Shown here: positions 172 to 8,267 of the stretch, piece by piece | Numbering within the stretch: position 1 is the first letter of the stretch | How the letters are laid out: each line of letters begins with the position of its first letter | NCBI GenBank assembly: GCA_002686955.1 | Contig: NYZA01000039.1 | Coordinates: forward strand, 1-8,314 | Origin: Gemmatimonadota bacterium | Lineage (GTDB): Bacteria > GCA-2686955 | Length of the DNA stretch: 8,314 nucleotides | Direction: 5' to 3' | Notes under the pieces: model-generated | The model's database searches: none | What the model was told of the DNA's origin: nothing | The model's input: only the letters and a program-made list of their open reading frames with translations | Position numbers and translations under genes: made by a program

Positions 172-996
172 CTAGTTCAGCCGGATCGCCAGATCGTAGG
201 CATGCGCGAGGGTACTCTGCACATCGTACGTGTCGTGGGCCTCGGTCGTGCGAGCGAGATAGCGCGACAGATCGTCCACGGCCCGCCACCAGTGACCGAG
301 GTCGTGGTGCAACATGCCGCGATCCCTGATCTCCGGGAGTCTCCCCGGCGTGGCTTGCAAGAGACGGATCACCGAAACCAGGGCGTGATCCGCGTCGCCG
401 CTTCGCCGATAGGCGCGTTTGAGTGTTCGCAAGATCCGGAGCGCAAGATCCTTGTTCGTCAAAGGCGCGGGTTCATGCGGAGCCATGACCTTGCCACCGA
501 TCGTTTGGCGCGCCTTGCGGAGCGCTTCCGCGGTGTCGAACACCTGTCCGCCGTCGAAGAGGTCGACGAAGAGATCGGCGCCGACCCGTAGCACCAGTTG
601 ACCCGGGAGAATCACGGGATGACAGGTGTGTCCCGCTTCCCGCAGGGCTCCCAAATAGGGGATTGCGAAGGTGGCCGCGATTCCGAGCCCTCTGCACAAC
701 ACTTGGCTCAGAAAGCAGTTGCGAGGGTCGTAATAGTCCACCGTGTTGCCACGCATACGGTTGTGGACGAAGAAGTAGTGGTTCAACGTGCGCACGATGT
801 CGATCGGTTGCAGATCACCGGAAAGCTCGCGGGTTGCACCGGCAACGAATTCGCGATAGCTCTCGAGCGTTGCCTCCATGTCGAAATCGGCGGCATGGTC
901 GGCCTCGACGAGCAACGCCGCGCGCGGAAGGTCGATGTCGGGATCCTCCGAACGGAGAAGCGTCGCGAGCGGGTCCGCGGAGCTGGGGAGCTTCAT
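172..996 (-). CDS. SirB1-family transglutaminase-like protein with C-terminal TPR-like region
   Basis: This 274-residue protein matches the SirB1/UPF0162 family, a transglutaminase-fold core followed by TPR helices. The core is clear: HNRMRGNTVDYYDPRNCFL at residues 77-95, then RGLGIAATFAIPYL, LPGQLVLRVG (130-139) and LFVDLFDGG (142-150). Residues from about 180 to 274 are helical and TPR-like. Two positions differ from the family as I recall it: Gln133 stands where LPGH(F) normally carries His, and Cys94 stands where RNS(F/Y)L normally has Ser. I see no signal peptide, so it is probably cytoplasmic. The biochemical role of the family is poorly defined. The start was chosen because ATG at 996-994 overlaps the stop of the porin gene (ATGA) and immediately precedes the family-like N-terminus. 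No Shine-Dalgarno is visible, which fits translational coupling. The open frame continues upstream to 1143 but only as porin shadow. Confidence 0.82.
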   Translation of the reverse strand: MKLPSSADPLATLLRSEDPDIDLPRAALLVEADHAADFDMEATLESYREFVAGATRELSGDLQPIDIVRTLNHYFFVHNRMRGNTVDYYDPRNCFLSQVLCRGLGIAATFAIPYLGALREAGHTCHPVILPGQLVLRVGADLFVDLFDGGQVFDTAEALRKARQTIGGKVMAPHEPAPLTNKDLALRILRTLKRAYRRSGDADHALVSVIRLLQATPGRLPEIRDRGMLHHDLGHWWRAVDDLSRYLARTTEAHDTYDVQSTLAHAYDLAIRLN

Positions 997-1982
997 GGCG
1001 TGAAGCGCCAGGCGAGCACGATCCGATCGGTGGTGGCGTCCGAGCGATCGCCCGGAGCTTTTGCCCTGCTCAGATGGGTGAATTCCGCGATCAAGGCCGA
1101 CCCCTTCCACACCCGAATCCCGACGAATGGCGTCCACTCCCAAAGGGCGTTGTAGAGCACATCACGATCCGGATCGATCCTCGATGCACGGATGCCCGGA
1201 ACGACACCGCGCCAATCGAGCGCCCCTTCGACCGTCGAGCCGGTCATGTCGGTACCCGTCAGCCGGTTGTCGGCAGCCAACCATTCCCCCCATATCGAGA
1301 GCGACCTCCACTCGAGCGATAGATCTACCTCCCAGGCGAAACCGTTACCGTGCGTGCTCGACCGCGCCCAGTTCAGTCCGGCTCCGCACGAAAGCCCCTC
1401 GCCCAGACGGAATGCCGACCGGGAGATCCACTGCTTCTCGTCGTCGTCATCTTCGTTTTTCGGCCCCTGGCCATTCATCGCCGCCAGCTCGATCTCGATC
1501 GCTCTCGAGGCCCAGCTTCTCGACCAGCGAAACATCAGACCTTCATCGCGACCGACATAATCGGATTCGCCCTTCGGGGCGGCGAACTCCTGATTGTTCG
1601 CTCCGAACAGGTCGTAGACGATATCCCGCTCGGTCGTCCGCAGCTTGGAGCTCGCGATCAACGCCCCACGCGAAAAGGGCTTCTTGAATCGACCGAGTTG
1701 AATCTCAAACCCTTCGAGTATCTCCGCCTCGACATAGCCGTCGAGCAGCTCCACATCATCGGGTCGCACTTTCACCTCGATCGACAGAGAGCGCCGCTTC
1801 CCCAAATCCTCCTCGATCGCGAAACGCGAGCGCCGCAGGCCGAACGAGAAGGGCTCCTCGTCGTTCGGGCGCTCCAACTGGAACTGCATGAGTGGGTCGA
1901 TCTTGGTGGCGGGAGTGGGGGGCAATACGCCGAGCAGGAGCATTACGAGCAAGCTCGCCCTGACGCAGCCGCCGCCCGACAT
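993..1982 (-). CDS. Phosphate-selective porin O/P-like outer-membrane protein
   Basis: The product is 329 residues. A signal peptide (about residues 1-26, hydrophobic LLVMLLLGVL) precedes a beta-barrel-like sequence. The OprO/OprP signature is recognisable: FGLRRSRFAIEEDL (47-60), an alternating strand VKVRPDD, DGYVEAEI (81-88), then the family hallmark LGRFKKPFSR (96-105) with SSKLRTTERDIV just after. The rest alternates amphipathic strands with polar loops, including an acidic loop at 177-182 and a lone Trp-rich strand WEWTPFVGIRVW (281-292). It ends LAWRFTP, with the aromatic residue third from the end rather than last. It is shorter than the roughly 400 residues usual for OprP, so it may be a smaller 12-16-strand variant. 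Family members pass phosphate or polyphosphate; substrate here is inferred only. The start is ATG at 1982-1980, 5 bases after GAGGGG, a good ribosome site; two upstream ATGs at 2001-2006 lie inside the preceding gene. Confidence 0.8.
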   Translation of the reverse strand: MSGGGCVRASLLVMLLLGVLPPTPATKIDPLMQFQLERPNDEEPFSFGLRRSRFAIEEDLGKRRSLSIEVKVRPDDVELLDGYVEAEILEGFEIQLGRFKKPFSRGALIASSKLRTTERDIVYDLFGANNQEFAAPKGESDYVGRDEGLMFRWSRSWASRAIEIELAAMNGQGPKNEDDDDEKQWISRSAFRLGEGLSCGAGLNWARSSTHGNGFAWEVDLSLEWRSLSIWGEWLAADNRLTGTDMTGSTVEGALDWRGVVPGIRASRIDPDRDVLYNALWEWTPFVGIRVWKGSALIAEFTHLSRAKAPGDRSDATTDRIVLAWRFTP

Positions 1983-1989
1983 CGTCCCC

Positions 1990-2829
1990 TCAGGCCTCGC
2001 CATCATCCAGGCTCCACTGGATATCCACGGCGTGAGGATCGATCCGCGCGCGCAGCTCCCTGATCCATAGCTCAACCGACTCGCCGGGACCGAGGCGCAC
2101 GCGCGCCTGGACGCGACCATCGTCCCGGCGCTCGCGCAAGAAGAGCAGCACTGCGTGGGTTGATTCCTCCACGCTGTCTTCGATCCCGGCGGTCAATGCC
2201 TGCGCATCGCTTCCCCGTGCTTTCAGAGTCAAGGTGGGGCCCGCGAGTTTGTCCTCGCCGGCATCGTCCTCGGGTGTGCGCGAGCCCCACAGCAGAATCG
2301 GGATGAGCAGCAGAACGAATGCCGCCGTGCTTACCCCGGCGAGCGCGAATTGGCCCAGGCCGCATGCCATACCGAGCCCGATGTGCACGAAAATCAACGC
2401 GGTTTCGACCGGGTTGCTGACCACGTTGCGGAAGCGGATGAAGCTGCCGAGCCCCACGAGCCCCATCGCGCGTTCGAAGCTGTCGTTGATTACGAGCACC
2501 ATCAGCGCCGCGGCGACGGTAAGGATCACCTGCGTCTGGACCATGCGGCGCGCCCGTTTTCCGCTCCCGTTCGATCGCCGCCGCAGGGGGTGGAACGCCA
2601 GGACCGCGCCGATCGCCGCGGCAAACACCAGCCGCACCAAGAGCTTGAGTAGCTCCTCGACCGTATAGTCCGGTGCTCCGAGCGAGGGCAGTTCCAGAAC
2701 GGCACTCGAATCCGGAAGCTGTGCTCCGGCGGCAAACGCCGTGCCCGCGGCGAGCCATGCGACGCTCACCGCGAATGCGCTCGTTCGTGCGTGCGGCTTG
2801 GTATCGGTTTCCGTGTCTGCTTCGAACAT
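1990..2829 (-). CDS. DUF4956 / MgtC-like inner-membrane protein
   Basis: The product is 279 residues. An N-terminal hydrophobic stretch (17-34, ending TAFAAGA) could be a cleaved signal or a first membrane segment. The core follows: a helix at 58-80 (LLKLLVRLVFAAAIGAVLAF) ending in a basic PLRRRS stretch, a second helix at 98-114, then GLGSFIRFRNVVSNPVETA (126-144), which is the DUF4956-like signature, and IGLGMACGLGQF (150-161). A last helix (166-181) leads to a roughly 95-residue soluble tail that resembles the small C-terminal domain of MgtC-type proteins. The function of DUF4956 is not established; it often neighbours VTC polyphosphate polymerase and CotH-like kinases. It is the first gene of the minus-strand block; the porin starts 7 bases after its stop. 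The start at 2829 has no visible Shine-Dalgarno. The frame runs on to 3477, but that part is antisense to the lamin-tail genes and was rejected. Confidence 0.8.
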   Translation of the reverse strand: MFEADTETDTKPHARTSAFAVSVAWLAAGTAFAAGAQLPDSSAVLELPSLGAPDYTVEELLKLLVRLVFAAAIGAVLAFHPLRRRSNGSGKRARRMVQTQVILTVAAALMVLVINDSFERAMGLVGLGSFIRFRNVVSNPVETALIFVHIGLGMACGLGQFALAGVSTAAFVLLLIPILLWGSRTPEDDAGEDKLAGPTLTLKARGSDAQALTAGIEDSVEESTHAVLLFLRERRDDGRVQARVRLGPGESVELWIRELRARIDPHAVDIQWSLDDGEA

Positions 2830-2884
2830 GGCGGGAGGATAGACCTTGCCCGGGACGAGGGAAAGGCGCCCGTCGCCCGTGAGC

Positions 2885-2936
2885 TGGACACCGAGCCGAC
2901 GTTCCAAGCTATAGTCTCCGCCGAGATCGTGGTGAA
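2885..2936. promoter_or_regulatory. Candidate divergent promoter pair sharing CTATAG
   Basis: The space between the two divergent blocks holds the palindrome CTATAG (2909-2914), which can serve as a -10 on both strands. On the plus strand, TGGACA (2885-2890) lies 19 bases before TATAGT (2910-2915). On the minus strand, TTCACC (complement of 2931-2936) lies 17 bases before TATAGC (complement of 2908-2913). Both are imperfect matches to a housekeeping sigma-70-type consensus, and promoter rules in this lineage are unknown, so this is a weak inference from spacing and position. Confidence 0.3.
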
Positions 2937-2976
2937 ACGGATCAACTTGCGAATCGCTCCAGACAGTCTCGAATGC

Positions 2977-3504
2977 TTGATAAAGAGGGTGCCGGCGGCG
3001 GCGCCCATTCTGGCCGCCGCTCCGATGCTCTGCCTCCTCGCGTGCGCCGAGAAGGGGGTCGCGCCCGAGCCGGATCCGGAACCCAGGGTCGTGCTGAACG
3101 AGCTCATGGCCGACAACGCGGGAACGACAGCCGATGATGACGGGGAGTTCGATGACTGGATCGAAATCCTCAATGTGGGAGAAACCGAGATCCCGCTTTC
3201 CGACCTGGCTCTTACGGACCGCTTGGACGACACCGATCCGTGGATCCCGGAGGGGACCGAGGCGTTGAGCCCAGGGGAACGGGTGTTGATCTGGGCGGAC
3301 GGAGACGACACCGCATTGCACGCCGATTTCAAGCTTAATGTCCTCGGAGAGACCGTGGTCTTGCATTGGTCTCGGGAGGGCGGCATTATCGATTCGGTTA
3401 CCTACGAGGCATTGGACGCCGACGAGGCATATGCCCGATTCCCGGATGGCGAAGGGCCCTGGCGCCGAACCGATCAACCCACCCCAGGAGGGAGCAACTC
3501 ATGA
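2977..3504 (+). CDS. Lamin-tail-domain (LTD) lipoprotein
   Basis: The product is about 175 residues if started at TTG 2977. It has a lipoprotein signal: basic IKR, an Ala/Pro-rich hydrophobic core, then LLAC (lipobox, Cys23). A short PEPDPEP linker leads into one LTD domain (about 37-170) with RVVLNELMADN, DGEFDDWIEILN, GERVLIWADGDD, the HADFKL motif, and a closing YARFPDGEGPWR...TDQPTPGGSNS. LTD folds are Ig-like beta sandwiches common on surface and secreted bacterial proteins, where they are thought to help bind or anchor other macromolecules. The start is uncertain: no good Shine-Dalgarno precedes TTG 2977; GTG 2929 or 2932 would give a long, odd signal; GTG 2989 would drop the basic residues; ATG 2791 would overlap the divergent gene. 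The stop overlaps the next start (ATGA). Its LTD region is clearly paralogous to the next gene. Confidence 0.8.
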   Translation: MIKRVPAAAPILAAAPMLCLLACAEKGVAPEPDPEPRVVLNELMADNAGTTADDDGEFDDWIEILNVGETEIPLSDLALTDRLDDTDPWIPEGTEALSPGERVLIWADGDDTALHADFKLNVLGETVVLHWSREGGIIDSVTYEALDADEAYARFPDGEGPWRRTDQPTPGGSNS

Positions 3505-4292
3505 GACGCGAAACGACAACGCTCGCAACAGCACTCCTCACCTGCGCATTTGCGGCGACGCGGGCATCCGCCGGGCTATTCCTGAACGAAGCCATGCCGA
3601 TCAATAACGATACAATCGCCGATGAAGGCGGAGATTACGATGATTGGTTCGAGCTTTACAATAGCTCCGCGACGCCGATTTCATTGTTCGGTTTCTCGGT
3701 GAGCGACAGCCCGGAGGACACAGTCACCTGGGCTTTCCCCTACACGACGATTCCGGGCCACGGATTCCTGATCGTCTGGGCGGACGACGATCAGGAGCAG
3801 GGCCCCCTGCACGCACCCTTCAAGCTGAGCGGCAGTGGCGAGAGTCTGGTTCTCTGGTTCGGTTCCACCATCGTCGACTCGGTCTCGTGGGGACCTGCGG
3901 AGGCCGACGAATCGTATTCGCGCCTGCCCGACGGGGTAGGTGAGTGGTCCTGGACCGACCAGCCGACCCCCGAGGCATCGAACAAAGCGACCGGGATCGG
4001 TGATGGCGGGCTGCCGCCGTCGCGACCGATGTTCGCTTTGGAACCCGCTCGGCCGAACCCCTTCAATCCACGCACGACGGTCCCGATCGCTCTGGATGCC
4101 GCTGTGAAACGACTGCGGGTCGTGGCGTACGATGTTGCCGGTAGGGCGGTGGAGACTCTGTACGACGCGCCCGCCGATGCTGGTACCATGCGTCTCTCTT
4201 GGCAAGCATCCGACCTGCCCAGCGGAATCTATGTCGTCCGGGCGGAAGCGGATGGTCAGCGACAATCGAGGAAACTCGTTCTTCTCAAGTAG
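3501..4292 (+). CDS. Secreted LTD protein with FlgD-like / type IX-style C-terminal sorting domain
   Basis: The product is 263 residues. A signal peptide (1-24, ending RASA) precedes an LTD domain (about 25-162): LFLNEAMPIN, GGDYDDWFELYN (43-54), IVWADDDQ, LHAPFKLSGSGESLVLWF, IVDSVSW, and SRLPDGVGEWSWTDQPTP. After a Gly/Pro linker comes a C-terminal module (about 178-263): EPARPNPFNPRTTV, VVAYDVAGRAVETLYD, an AGT...LSW strand, LPSGIYVVRAEA and the final RKLVLLK. This pattern is that of FlgD-Ig-like/T9SS type A sorting domains, which direct secretion across the outer membrane and surface attachment in FCB-group bacteria. No catalytic domain is present, so the protein may be structural or adhesive. 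The start ATG 3501 overlaps the upstream stop and follows AGGAGGGAG by a suitable distance. The lipoprotein gene begins 31 bases downstream. Confidence 0.88.
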   Translation: MRRETTTLATALLTCAFAATRASAGLFLNEAMPINNDTIADEGGDYDDWFELYNSSATPISLFGFSVSDSPEDTVTWAFPYTTIPGHGFLIVWADDDQEQGPLHAPFKLSGSGESLVLWFGSTIVDSVSWGPAEADESYSRLPDGVGEWSWTDQPTPEASNKATGIGDGGLPPSRPMFALEPARPNPFNPRTTVPIALDAAVKRLRVVAYDVAGRAVETLYDAPADAGTMRLSWQASDLPSGIYVVRAEADGQRQSRKLVLLK

Positions 4293-4323
4293 ACCACCGC
4301 CTCATTCCGTTTGGAGAGCCTCC

Positions 4324-5004
4324 ATGACATTCAAGCGATTCATTGAATCGTATCTCGCATTTGTATGTTCAGGCGTGCTCGTGGGCTGCGGCGACAAGAA
4401 CGAAGTGCAACCCCCTGCGCAACCGCTCCCGAACGATCCCCCGCCCGCCGCGCGAGCGGTTTCGGAAAAAGGCGAGGCACCAAAGATGTTGACGGCCGGC
4501 GATCGAATCGAGGTCTACGCCGAGGTGCTCCAGCAGGTGTTGCGCAGGGATTCCTCTCCAAGGAGCGGGGTTTTTGTCGATCCGAGTGGGCTCCTCGGCC
4601 TCGACGACTTGCAGCGCCACCAGGTCTTGGTCGCGCTCGAATCCGTGGAAGCGCGCGCCTTCTTCGGTGCCCGGGAGGATGTGCTGGAGGCGGTGAAGGA
4701 GAGAGACGAGGAGCGCGATCGAGACGAGGCCGCTCGCTTGAACAAGGCCAACAAGAAACGAGATCAGAGTGGTTCATCCACGGCGGCAACACCCTTGGAG
4801 CTCGCACCAGTCGCCGACGACGAAGCCCCGATGCTGGTGATCAGCCTTGAAGTCGGGTCCTTTCTAGCCGAGCGGGCGTCGATCGTCGGTTCTTCGTGGC
4901 ACATAGAATCCGGAGAAAAGCGGACGCGCTTCGCGGCCGCCTGGAGCGACGATCAGTGGCGGGTGCGGGAAGATCGCTCCGCCGAGACGGGTGAGGGCGA
5001 ATAG
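4324..5004 (+). CDS. Predicted lipoprotein of unknown function
   Basis: I do not recognise this 226-residue protein. What can be seen is a lipoprotein signal with basic FKR, a hydrophobic stretch and LVGC (lipobox, Cys22), then a Pro-rich low-complexity tether (29-42). A globular-looking part follows (55-118; RIEVYAEVLQQVL, GVFVDPSGLLGLDDLQRHQVL). Next is a highly charged helical segment (119-147, rich in Glu, Arg, Asp and Lys), likely a coiled coil or long single helix. The C-terminal part (165-215) reads as short beta strands, with LVISLEVGSFLAERASIVG and WHIESGEKRTRFAAAWSDDQWRV. The start ATG 4324 is 5 bases after GGAGAG. The gene lies 31 bases after the sorted LTD protein, so it probably shares that transcript and may serve the same cell surface. 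No terminator-like hairpin is obvious after the stop. Confidence 0.75.
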   Translation: MTFKRFIESYLAFVCSGVLVGCGDKNEVQPPAQPLPNDPPPAARAVSEKGEAPKMLTAGDRIEVYAEVLQQVLRRDSSPRSGVFVDPSGLLGLDDLQRHQVLVALESVEARAFFGAREDVLEAVKERDEERDRDEAARLNKANKKRDQSGSSTAATPLELAPVADDEAPMLVISLEVGSFLAERASIVGSSWHIESGEKRTRFAAAWSDDQWRVREDRSAETGEGE

Positions 5005-5255: not shown

Positions 5256-6227
5256 ATGAGGCTATTTGCTAAAGGACTGCTGTCCAGTGTCGGCCTGACG
5301 CTGGTTTTCGCTCCGGGGGCGCTCGCCAACTGGAGCCGAGTCAATGCAATGGGCGGAGACGACCGTCTTCTGCTCGATGACAATACGATCCGATACCGTT
5401 TCCCCCACCAACTGGTCAACTACCACGACGTAAACGTCGAGGACGGGGCCGGTTTCTCGATCGTACATGAGTACGGAGACGCAACCGTCGGTGCCATGCA
5501 CGATGCAACACCCGGTTCGACGAACTTCCTGAACCTCATGTACGCGCGCAACAACTGGGGGGCGATCCTCTGGTTGGACCACCAATCGGACGGCGAAGAT
5601 CTGCCGGGCTACACCGGCGCTTGGGTCAACTTCGGCACCGAGCTCGGCGGCGGCGATTTCGCCATCGGTGGTGGCTTCTTCTCCGACGATCCAGGCGGGG
5701 GCGGCGATGCCGTCACCGGCTTCGAGGGCCATGCGAACTTCCGCGGCGCCGATGGCGTCAGCACCTGGTTAAACTTGGGCCCGATCGGTGAGGTCACCTT
5801 CGAGAGCGTCGCTGACGATCACAGCATGTTCAGCGTGGAGGCGGGCCTTGGCGGCAACCATACCTTCGGCACCAGCGGCACCGTTGTCTGCGGTGTATTC
5901 GCCAGTTTCGAAAACTTTAGCCCCGATGTCGGTGACGCCATCAGCACGATCATTCTGCCCGATTTTCACGTAGGCGCGGAGTACGATGTCGGCAGCTGGT
6001 TCGGCTATGGTGTGACTCTGCGTGCCGGAGCGAACCGCATGACCGAGTGGGAAGATGGCGCCATCACCCACATGTTCATGCAGGACTTCGGTTTCGGAAT
6101 CGGAAACGATCGTGTTTCGATCGACGGCGTGCTGCACGACGATGTGCTCAGGGACGGTCCCTACATCGTCGGTGGAGAGGACAACGGCCTCTTCACGCAG
6201 CTCTCCGTGACGATCGGTCTCGACTAG
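5256..6227 (+). CDS. Predicted outer-membrane beta-barrel protein
   Basis: The product is 323 residues. A classic signal peptide (MRLFAKGLLSSVGLTLVFAPGALA, cleavage after residue 24) is followed by a long run of alternating hydrophobic/polar strands and Gly/Asp-rich turns, as in porin-like barrels. The mature N-terminus (NWSRVNAMGGDDRLLLDDNTIRYRFP) has the look of a conserved lead motif, RVxAMGG...DDxxNI...FP, that I associate with uncharacterised barrels of FCB-type bacteria. Later strands include WGAILWLDHQ, FAIGGGFFSDDPGGGG, GVTLRAGANRMTEW and FMQDFGFGIGNDRVSIDGVL. It ends in FTQLSVTIGLD, not in an aromatic residue. A single Cys (212) is present. No substrate can be assigned. The start ATG 5256 is 5 bases after GAGAGGAG; upstream in-frame codons from 5178 lie in non-coding leader. 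It seems to be a single-gene unit, bounded by its own promoter region and the downstream hairpin. Confidence 0.8.
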   Translation: MRLFAKGLLSSVGLTLVFAPGALANWSRVNAMGGDDRLLLDDNTIRYRFPHQLVNYHDVNVEDGAGFSIVHEYGDATVGAMHDATPGSTNFLNLMYARNNWGAILWLDHQSDGEDLPGYTGAWVNFGTELGGGDFAIGGGFFSDDPGGGGDAVTGFEGHANFRGADGVSTWLNLGPIGEVTFESVADDHSMFSVEAGLGGNHTFGTSGTVVCGVFASFENFSPDVGDAISTIILPDFHVGAEYDVGSWFGYGVTLRAGANRMTEWEDGAITHMFMQDFGFGIGNDRVSIDGVLHDDVLRDGPYIVGGEDNGLFTQLSVTIGLD

Positions 6228-6342: not shown

Positions 6343-6361
6343 TTCATGGATGATCCATGAA
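6343..6361 (+). promoter_or_regulatory. Palindrome spanning the antiporter start codon
   Basis: TTCATGGATGATCCATGAA is a perfect 9+1+9 palindrome, and the antiporter ATG (6357-6359) lies in its right arm. As RNA it can form a 7-bp stem with a 5-base loop, burying the start codon. The left arm contains another ATG (6346) that opens a 4-codon frame (Met-Asp-Asp-Pro-stop) whose TGA overlaps the antiporter ATG. No clear Shine-Dalgarno precedes either ATG. It could be an operator, a translation-control hairpin or a mini-upstream frame. Confidence 0.45.
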
Positions 6362-8267
6362 TAGCAGAAGCCTGATCCTGGCTGCGACAGGCCTGCTCCT
6401 CTTCGCCATCTGCGGACCGCTGCTGCGGCCGAACGCGGATTACCTGGCTCGAATAGCGGTTCTCGATGGCGTGCCAGGTGTGCTCTCCGATCTTTCCGAT
6501 TCGCTCTCCTCGCCCGGAGTGTCGCTGCTGGTTTCGGGGCCGGAAGGCGAGGCGCTCACCCGTGACCTTGAAGCGGCGATCCGCGCGATCGATGGGCTCG
6601 AGGTCGATGCATCCTCGTCTCAGGTCATCGAGGCGGAACTCCGGAGCGACCTCGATCCGCCACGTCTGTTGCTGCACTCCGGCCCGACCTGGCGCCGAGA
6701 AGTGACCGGCCAGCCGCACCACTGGCACTCGCTCCTACCTCCCTTCGTCGCGATCTTGCTAGCCCTCACCCTACGCAAGACCATCCCTGCTCTATTGCTC
6801 GGAGTCTGGTCCGGATCGATGTTAATGGCGAGTGGAGACCTGCTCACGCGAATCGCGGCGGGTACGGTCCACGTAATCACCGACTACATCGTTCGGGTTT
6901 CGTTTTTCGAATACGAGAGCCTCTTGCTGCCTTCCACATGGACCCCGGCGAACTTCCAACTCGAGATCATCCTCTTCGTTCTCGGTTTGATCGGGACTGT
7001 CGGCATCGCCAGTCGCGCTGGCGGCATCCAAGGCGTGATGAACCTGCTGCTAGAGAAGGTCGCGGGTGTGCGCTCCGCTCTTCTGACGACCTTCGCGATG
7101 GGCCTCGCCATCTTCTTTGACGACTACTCGAACACCTTGATTGTCGGCAACACAATGCGGCCGCTCACCGACAGACTGCGAGTGTCGCGCGAGAAGCTGG
7201 CCTACATCGTTGATTCGACCGCGGCGCCCGTGGCCGGAATCAGCGCGCTATCCACTTGGGTTGCGTACGAAGTTTCGATGTTCGCCGGACCTGTCGCCGA
7301 GCTTGGGATGGGCGACAATCCGTACTCGGTCTTCCTGCAAACGATCCCATTCCGCTTCTATTGCCTGCTCACGCTTGCAATGGTGGCACTATTGTGCTGG
7401 ACCGGTCGGGATTTCGGCCCGATGCTCCGTGCGGAGCGCCGCGCGCGCGAAACCGGCGCCGTTGTCGGCGAGGGTAGCTCCCCAACTCTCTCCGCCTCGA
7501 TGGAAAAGGCTCGTCCGAAAGAAGGCATACCGGCGCGCTGGTACAATGCCGTCGCACCGATCGGTCTGGTGCTGGCGGCAACGGTTTTTCTCATCGGATC
7601 GACCGGGCACGCGGGCCTTCCACCAGGTACGAACGTCGACCTCTTGAGCGGCGCCTACCTGCGCGCGGTGCTCGGAAACGCCGACTCCGCCTACGCGCTC
7701 TTCGTTGCATCATGGCTCGGGTTCGGCCTCGCCTTTCTGCTTGCGGTCGGGCAGCGGATCTTGTCTCCGGTCGAAGCCCTTCGCGCCGGTCTGGCGTCGT
7801 TCGGGGCGGTTTCGAGCGCAATCGCGATCCTGCTGCTCGCCTGGGGCATCGGCAAAGTCTGCGCCGATCTCGGCACGGCGCACTATCTGATCGCGCTCCT
7901 TTCGGGACGGATCTCCCCGGTGGTCTTCCCAGCCGGTCTCTTTCTGATCTCCTGCCTGGTGAGCTTCTCGACCGGGTCGTCGTGGTCCACGATGAGCATC
8001 GTGCTTCCGAACACGGTCTTTCTTGCGCATGCGATCGGGGGGGAATCCGCCATCGGCGCCGAAGCGATGACGATCATGAGCATCGGTGCCGTGCTCGAGG
8101 GCTCGATCTTCGGCGACCACTGCTCGCCGATCTCCGACAGCACGATCATCTCGTCGATGGCGGCCGGCACGGATCACATCGATCACGTGCGAACGCAGTT
8201 GCCGTACGCGCTGATGGCCGCGGCCGTGACGGTGGCGGCCTATCTCGTCCTGGGGTTCACCCTCTAG
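6357..8267 (+). CDS. nhaC: NhaC-family Na+/H+ antiporter with N-terminal soluble insertion
   Basis: The product is 636 residues, a multi-pass inner-membrane protein. Family motifs are strong: LPPFVAILLALTLRKTIPALLLGVW (127-151), FFDDYSNTLIVGNTMRPLTD (253-272), REKLAYIVDSTAAPVA (278-293), FSTGSSWSTMSIVLPN (537-552) and the hallmark GDHCSPISDSTIISS (586-600). The family exchanges external protons for internal sodium (some members carry organic acids or amino acids instead), so the expected role is sodium/pH homeostasis. A first membrane helix (about 6-21) is followed by roughly 100 mostly hydrophilic residues before the transporter core; the usual NhaC proteins of about 450-520 residues lack this. 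A charged cytoplasmic loop lies at about 352-394. The start ATG 6357 has no clear ribosome site and is buried in a palindrome; a start further inside would lose the first helix. The stop codon lies in the downstream hairpin. Confidence 0.9.
   Translation: MNSRSLILAATGLLLFAICGPLLRPNADYLARIAVLDGVPGVLSDLSDSLSSPGVSLLVSGPEGEALTRDLEAAIRAIDGLEVDASSSQVIEAELRSDLDPPRLLLHSGPTWRREVTGQPHHWHSLLPPFVAILLALTLRKTIPALLLGVWSGSMLMASGDLLTRIAAGTVHVITDYIVRVSFFEYESLLLPSTWTPANFQLEIILFVLGLIGTVGIASRAGGIQGVMNLLLEKVAGVRSALLTTFAMGLAIFFDDYSNTLIVGNTMRPLTDRLRVSREKLAYIVDSTAAPVAGISALSTWVAYEVSMFAGPVAELGMGDNPYSVFLQTIPFRFYCLLTLAMVALLCWTGRDFGPMLRAERRARETGAVVGEGSSPTLSASMEKARPKEGIPARWYNAVAPIGLVLAATVFLIGSTGHAGLPPGTNVDLLSGAYLRAVLGNADSAYALFVASWLGFGLAFLLAVGQRILSPVEALRAGLASFGAVSSAIAILLLAWGIGKVCADLGTAHYLIALLSGRISPVVFPAGLFLISCLVSFSTGSSWSTMSIVLPNTVFLAHAIGGESAIGAEAMTIMSIGAVLEGSIFGDHCSPISDSTIISSMAAGTDHIDHVRTQLPYALMAAAVTVAAYLVLGFTL

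Follow-up and report, generated by a model that had tools for sequence, protein, structure and literature searches.

The 8,314 bp stretch of DNA studied here (the window) is the entire contig C39 of a fragmented assembly, G000 (270 contigs, 84.5% complete), and carries two divergent blocks of three genes each, DUF4956–porin–SirB1-like on the minus strand and LTD–LTD–lipoprotein on the plus strand. This locus proves to be a real and conserved version of the VTC/CotH/DUF4956 set of envelope genes. Its function stays putative; it probably serves in the handling of phosphate-like anions or in surface decoration. Members of the recurring set are a VTC protein of the polyphosphate polymerase type, the DUF4956 membrane protein, CotH/LTD proteins and a porin, the last in some diderm lineages. 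The two blocks comprise the following features:

172-996, minus strand: SirB1-like protein, 274 amino acids; PF13369 at E 1e-24 and TPR_9 at E 1e-12; orthologue L026:4716-5540, 41% identity
993-1982, minus strand: outer-membrane porin, 329 amino acids, signal peptide; orthologue L026:3727-4719, 42% identity
1990-2829, minus strand: DUF4956 protein, predicted inner-membrane, 279 amino acids; orthologue L026:2906-3730, 50% identity
2830-2976, no strand: divergent intergenic region, ~147 bp
~2977-3504, plus strand: LTD1; PF00932 at 46.2 bits (cut-off 34.3); orthologue L026:2124-2663 (minus), 54% identity
3501-4292, plus strand: LTD2; LTD at 39.7 bits and a C-terminal Por_Secre_tail; orthologue L026:1333-2127 (minus), 50% identity
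4324-5004, plus strand: lipoprotein-like protein, 226 amino acids, VGC lipobox; orthologue L026:512-1324 (minus), 46% identity

Linkage of the six genes

The only other genome of the phylum, G001 (83% complete), keeps all six genes on its contig C724 in identical order and with the same divergence, at 41-54% protein identity. The earlier note had proposed that the two blocks form one possible envelope system and had named their separation in related genomes as the result that would speak against it. As G001 retains both the order and the divergent layout, no such separation was seen and the proposed linkage held in the one related genome, the basis being two genomes. Substitutions between the window and G001 fall mostly at third codon positions, as one expects where selection acts on the protein. 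The genes are closely packed, with 4-bp overlaps between the SirB1-like gene and the porin gene and between LTD1 and LTD2. The start of LTD1 is assumed to be a TTG codon, with GTG at 2989 as the alternative. Porin and DUF4956 are spaced by 7 bp; we considered a VTC remnant between these two and ruled it out, as this leaves no room for one.

The two blocks could also be independent operons that share an intergenic region by accident in a slowly rearranging lineage. The comparison covers two genomes only, and no promoter motif common to both blocks was found; the intergenic regions of the window and G001 align poorly, and a search for a sigma-70-type promoter gave no match in the divergent region. 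LTD domains are rare, however, with 37 in G000 and 13 in G001, and paired LTD genes beside DUF4956 in both genomes are therefore unlikely by chance. An unrelated phylum, described below, also has porin, DUF4956 and LTD genes grouped together with VTC and CotH. We consider accidental sharing improbable, and the synteny with G001 together with this parallel clustering led us to reject a chance neighbourhood.

Kinship with VTC and CotH loci

When named genomes were scanned with a DUF4956 alignment, G001 and 28 more loci were returned, almost all from Myxococcota. The order porin–VTC–(gene)–DUF4956 was present in 26 of these 28, and the remaining two are interrupted by contig ends. In the one locus checked against Pfam, that of Citreicoccus inhibens, VTC was confirmed, the intervening gene is thymidylate-kinase-like, and a metallophosphatase gene follows DUF4956. 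A DUF4956 tree placed the window, G001 and the Myxococcota in one clade with a support of 100/100 and a long stem, while the copies on contigs C97 and C157 of G000 fell outside it.

The phylum of genome G241 shows a similar arrangement. DUF4956 was found in 30 of its 42 genomes, and porin, VTC and DUF4956 are directly consecutive in 19 of the 21 loci read, the other two reaching contig ends. CotH and/or LTD genes lie nearby, in the order CotH/LTD–porin–VTC–DUF4956. When 336 genomes were searched with a model of the window porin built from a two-row alignment, one match, in G241, adjoined VTC, DUF4956, CotH and LTD genes. The porins of this phylum match the model at E values from 1e-10 to 3e-4; those of the Myxococcota match more weakly (~2e-5 to 8e-3), some only with an iterated model. 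Among 18 VTC regions in other genomes DUF4956 lay near VTC in 16 and CotH in 8. With the models used, LTD was not detected beside the closest DUF4956 kin, one weak match excepted. From these wider neighbourhoods we take DUF4956, porin and LTD to be recurring parts of the VTC/CotH envelope gene set. The kinship of the DUF4956 and LTD genes with VTC/CotH loci, as previously suggested, is thereby borne out, and extends to the porin.

The locus itself lacks the two genes that name the set. No VTC gene was found in the window or at G001:C724, and no CotH gene at the locus, in line with what the earlier note had stated. In the genome as a whole this absence does not stand: G000 gave 17 CotH matches and one VTC match, the latter on C97, where a canonical set of DUF4956, CotH (with beta-helix) and VTC lies downstream of a subtilase gene (L005:8413-12487). 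As both genes are encoded elsewhere in G000, they are absent from the locus only. In G001 there were three CotH matches and no VTC match, in a genome 83% complete. We rejected the possibility that the window DUF4956 belongs to the canonical operon of G000; it is a distinct paralogue, given the position of the C97 copy elsewhere in the tree.

Some further observations were made among these loci. By eye, a TolC-like-looking gene stands beside VTC and DUF4956 in two other genomes (L033:5543-9535 and L034:9143-11881), and might serve there as an outer-membrane partner in place of the porin. The record named Comamonas sp. KCTC 72670 holds a myxobacterial porin–VTC–DUF4956 operon (L066:5997-10555), and is probably mislabelled. 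In Clostridium perfringens, VTC-adjacent proteins of 222-226 amino acids next to CotH are listed as 'tubulin/FtsZ GTPase' and predicted to be in the cytoplasmic membrane (PMC2879425, NELoc-2 table); judged by size and place these may be misannotated DUF4956 proteins.

DUF4956 accompanies most bacterial VTC genes examined, although its name turned up in only three of 5.39 million papers searched. Here the gene set occurs without polymerase or kinase but with its DUF4956, porin and LTD genes, which takes its parts apart and suggests that DUF4956 and the porin form a functional pair independent of polyphosphate synthesis. Since porin–VTC–DUF4956 operons occur in culturable Myxococcota, including Myxococcus xanthus, this idea is open to experiment.

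The proteins and their possible roles

The DUF4956 protein passes the cut-off of PF16316 (35.2 bits against 30.6). Its predicted model has a mean predicted local distance difference test score (pLDDT) of 70.6, near 90 in the C-terminal domain, and consists of a membrane part followed by a beta-alpha-beta-beta-alpha-beta domain of ferredoxin/ACT-like appearance. Foldseek ranked 7qa5 and 2lqj first and second of 350,542 chains for this domain (E ~3e-3); both are structures of an MgtC C-domain, from Pseudomonas aeruginosa and Mycobacterium tuberculosis respectively. When aligned to the MgtC C-domains with VIA-align it scored Z 10.4-10.7, a value that other ferredoxin-like folds equalled. The MgtC family PF02308 gave 15.9 bits, which misses its cut-off of 31.4, and no sequence relatives were found among solved structures. 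The fold matches of the C-domain and the weak sequence matches together make it likely that the protein is MgtC-like.

The window porin is predicted to have about 16 strands, and its model is a barrel with 15 resolved strands at a mean pLDDT of 56. This poor model matched OprP and OprO (2o4v, 4rjw) at Z 16.2, tied with general OmpF-type porins; no sequence relatives were found among solved structures. It had been described as a porin of the phosphate/polyphosphate type, and this holds in part. The protein itself has no match to PF07396 (Porin_O_P) at E 0.1, and its G001 orthologue reaches 16.6 bits, below the cut-off of 20.9. On the other hand, among the weak relatives that the two-row model found in the 336 genomes, all five that were checked are Porin_O_P proteins above the PF07396 cut-off. 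By way of these relatives the window porin appears to be a distant relative of Porin_O_P, an assignment that is indirect.

The SirB1-like protein has both a transglutaminase-like core (PF13369) and TPR repeats, and scored 37.2 bits against the NCBIfam equivalog NF008188, missing its cut-off of 391. The window protein and that of G001 have a PGQ motif, whereas the motif of the SirB1 family is PGH. The site of a putative catalytic cysteine is not conserved between the two proteins; an adaptor role would seem to fit. Neither the SirB1-like gene nor the lipoprotein gene had a relative near the other DUF4956 loci examined. The lipoprotein matches no known family, has homologues in no genome beyond these two among the 336 searched, and gave nothing meaningful against solved structures (E 1.6).

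LTD1 has a lipobox-like signal, LLAC. LTD2 ends in a type A sorting domain of the type IX secretion system (T9SS), above the cut-offs of both libraries (PF18962, 27.7 bits against 27; TIGR04183, 27.2 against 23), and SprA (SprA_N) is encoded in both G000 and G001. Judged by this tail and by SprA, LTD2 is probably exported to the cell surface. The same evidence would fit a module for surface assembly, in which LTD1, LTD2 and the lipoprotein build or modify a surface layer by way of the T9SS, CotH kinases act in trans, and DUF4956 and the porin serve the assembly, phosphate transport being beside the point. Several of the CotH matches of G000 share a long open frame with LTD domains (examples are on C46, C107 and C134), and a set of CotH, polyphosphate-polymerase-like and DUF4956 genes accompanies pel exopolysaccharide clusters of Gram-positives as accessory genes (PMC7112168). 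The locus, however, has no glycosyltransferase, kinase or polymer synthase, and the nearest DUF4956 kin adjoin VTC and porin with next to no LTD detected there. We regard surface assembly as somewhat unlikely to be the principal role.

The neighbouring genes downstream of the lipoprotein bear on another alternative:

5256-6227, plus strand: outer-membrane-type protein, 323 amino acids, signal peptide, no known family; between lipoprotein and NhaC
6357-8267, plus strand: Na+/H+ antiporter of the NhaC type, PF03553; a probable seventh member

In G001 the NhaC gene overlaps the lipoprotein gene and the outer-membrane-type gene is absent between them; this extra gene was either inserted in the lineage of the window or lost from that of G001. 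As the NhaC orthologue follows the lipoprotein directly in G001, and NhaC lies downstream in the window, NhaC is a likely seventh member of the locus. The locus might also be an ion-stress module. Its MgtC-like protein, NhaC and the porin would then serve to balance Mg2+, Na+/H+ or the energy state of the membrane, and the kinship with VTC would be historical. The MgtC-like C-domain of DUF4956 and the place of NhaC would both agree with this, but most relatives of DUF4956 accompany VTC and not ion transporters, and the NhaC link comes from two genomes, in one of which a gene intervenes. We hold an ion-stress function to be unlikely.

Our preferred reading, held tentatively and a little short of even confidence, is that the locus is a derivative of the recurring envelope gene set without VTC and CotH, and handles phosphate or polyanions. 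The linkage of the genes, their homology, the kinship of the operons and the T9SS context were observed directly; in this scheme we infer substrate, transport direction, membrane topology and all protein contacts. The MgtC-like DUF4956 protein in the inner membrane would regulate or permit the passage of phosphate or polyanions, and its C-terminal domain would act as a sensor or partner surface. The partner porin would let the same anions cross the outer membrane. Both LTD proteins, the lipoprotein and the one exported by the T9SS, would work at the cell surface, while the SirB1-like TPR protein may take the place of VTC as the soluble partner. Two published findings lead us to favour a DUF4956 gate or regulator with an anion porin: in Salmonella, phosphate uptake is promoted by MgtC (PMC6658541), and in eukaryotes the VTC complex links the synthesis of polyphosphate to membrane translocation (PMC9911596).

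Several points weigh against this reading. The locus contains no enzyme of phosphate chemistry, and the SirB1-like protein and the lipoprotein have no counterpart in VTC operons. Given the mean pLDDT of 56 of the porin model and the tie of OprP/OprO with OmpF-type porins, we can only infer selectivity, and no porin was detected in the 18 VTC regions of other genomes. By sequence the match to MgtC is weak (E 0.017), and many proteins have a ferredoxin-like fold. Finally, the variant is carried by two genomes only, both incomplete.

In a broader form, which we offer as speculation and think doubtful, DUF4956 proteins in general are MgtC-like and act in the inner membrane as gates or regulators, forming with a dedicated porin a trans-envelope route for phosphate or polyphosphate. 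This route would carry the polymer made by VTC in VTC loci; in this phylum the same pair would do without the polymerase and come under a SirB1-like partner and LTD proteins of the surface. If true, bacteria would have in it a modular counterpart of the VTC complex of eukaryotes.

As for the contig itself, no known RNA or tRNA genes were found in the window. The N-terminal half of NhaC is unusual, as the PF03553 match starts at residue 299 of 636; the best-scoring NCBIfam model is of the Tet(35) type, far under its cut-off. The contig begins within a palindromic element (1-175), full copies of which are ~184 bp and have the ends CTAGCCCGCATTTCTCACCAACTTTC in inverted repeat. It occurs at ~40 places in G000 (82-99% identity), many of them at contig ends, and at none in G001. 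The element forms a strong hairpin (z -11.9), has no Rfam match, and appears to have been inserted at a CTAG that contains the stop codon of the SirB1-like gene. It looks like a miniature inverted-repeat transposable element.

Comparison with known systems

The window shares DUF4956 with the VTC–DUF4956–CotH loci (PF09359, PF16316, PF08757), has LTD proteins as are found near many of them, and has a porin related to that of the VTC loci of Myxococcota and of the phylum of G241. It differs from them in the lack of VTC and CotH, in the order DUF4956–porin–SirB1-like, in a lipoprotein of its own and in the divergent LTD genes. With OprP/OprO (Porin_O_P, PF07396) the window porin has in common a distant sequence kinship through its relatives and, as far as its poor model goes, a predicted barrel of ~16 strands (Z 16.2, equalled by general porins), but is about 80-100 amino acids shorter and goes undetected by PF07396. 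The SirB1 family (PF13369, NF008188) shares the transglutaminase-like core and TPR with the window protein, which is far under the NCBIfam equivalog cut-off. Like DUF4956, members of the MgtC family (PF02308) have a transmembrane region followed by a small alpha/beta domain, and their C-domains are its best fold matches, though other ferredoxin-like folds score equally in alignment; the window DUF4956 protein in contrast lies under the MgtC cut-offs, has a signal-like N-terminal extension and belongs to a separate Pfam family.

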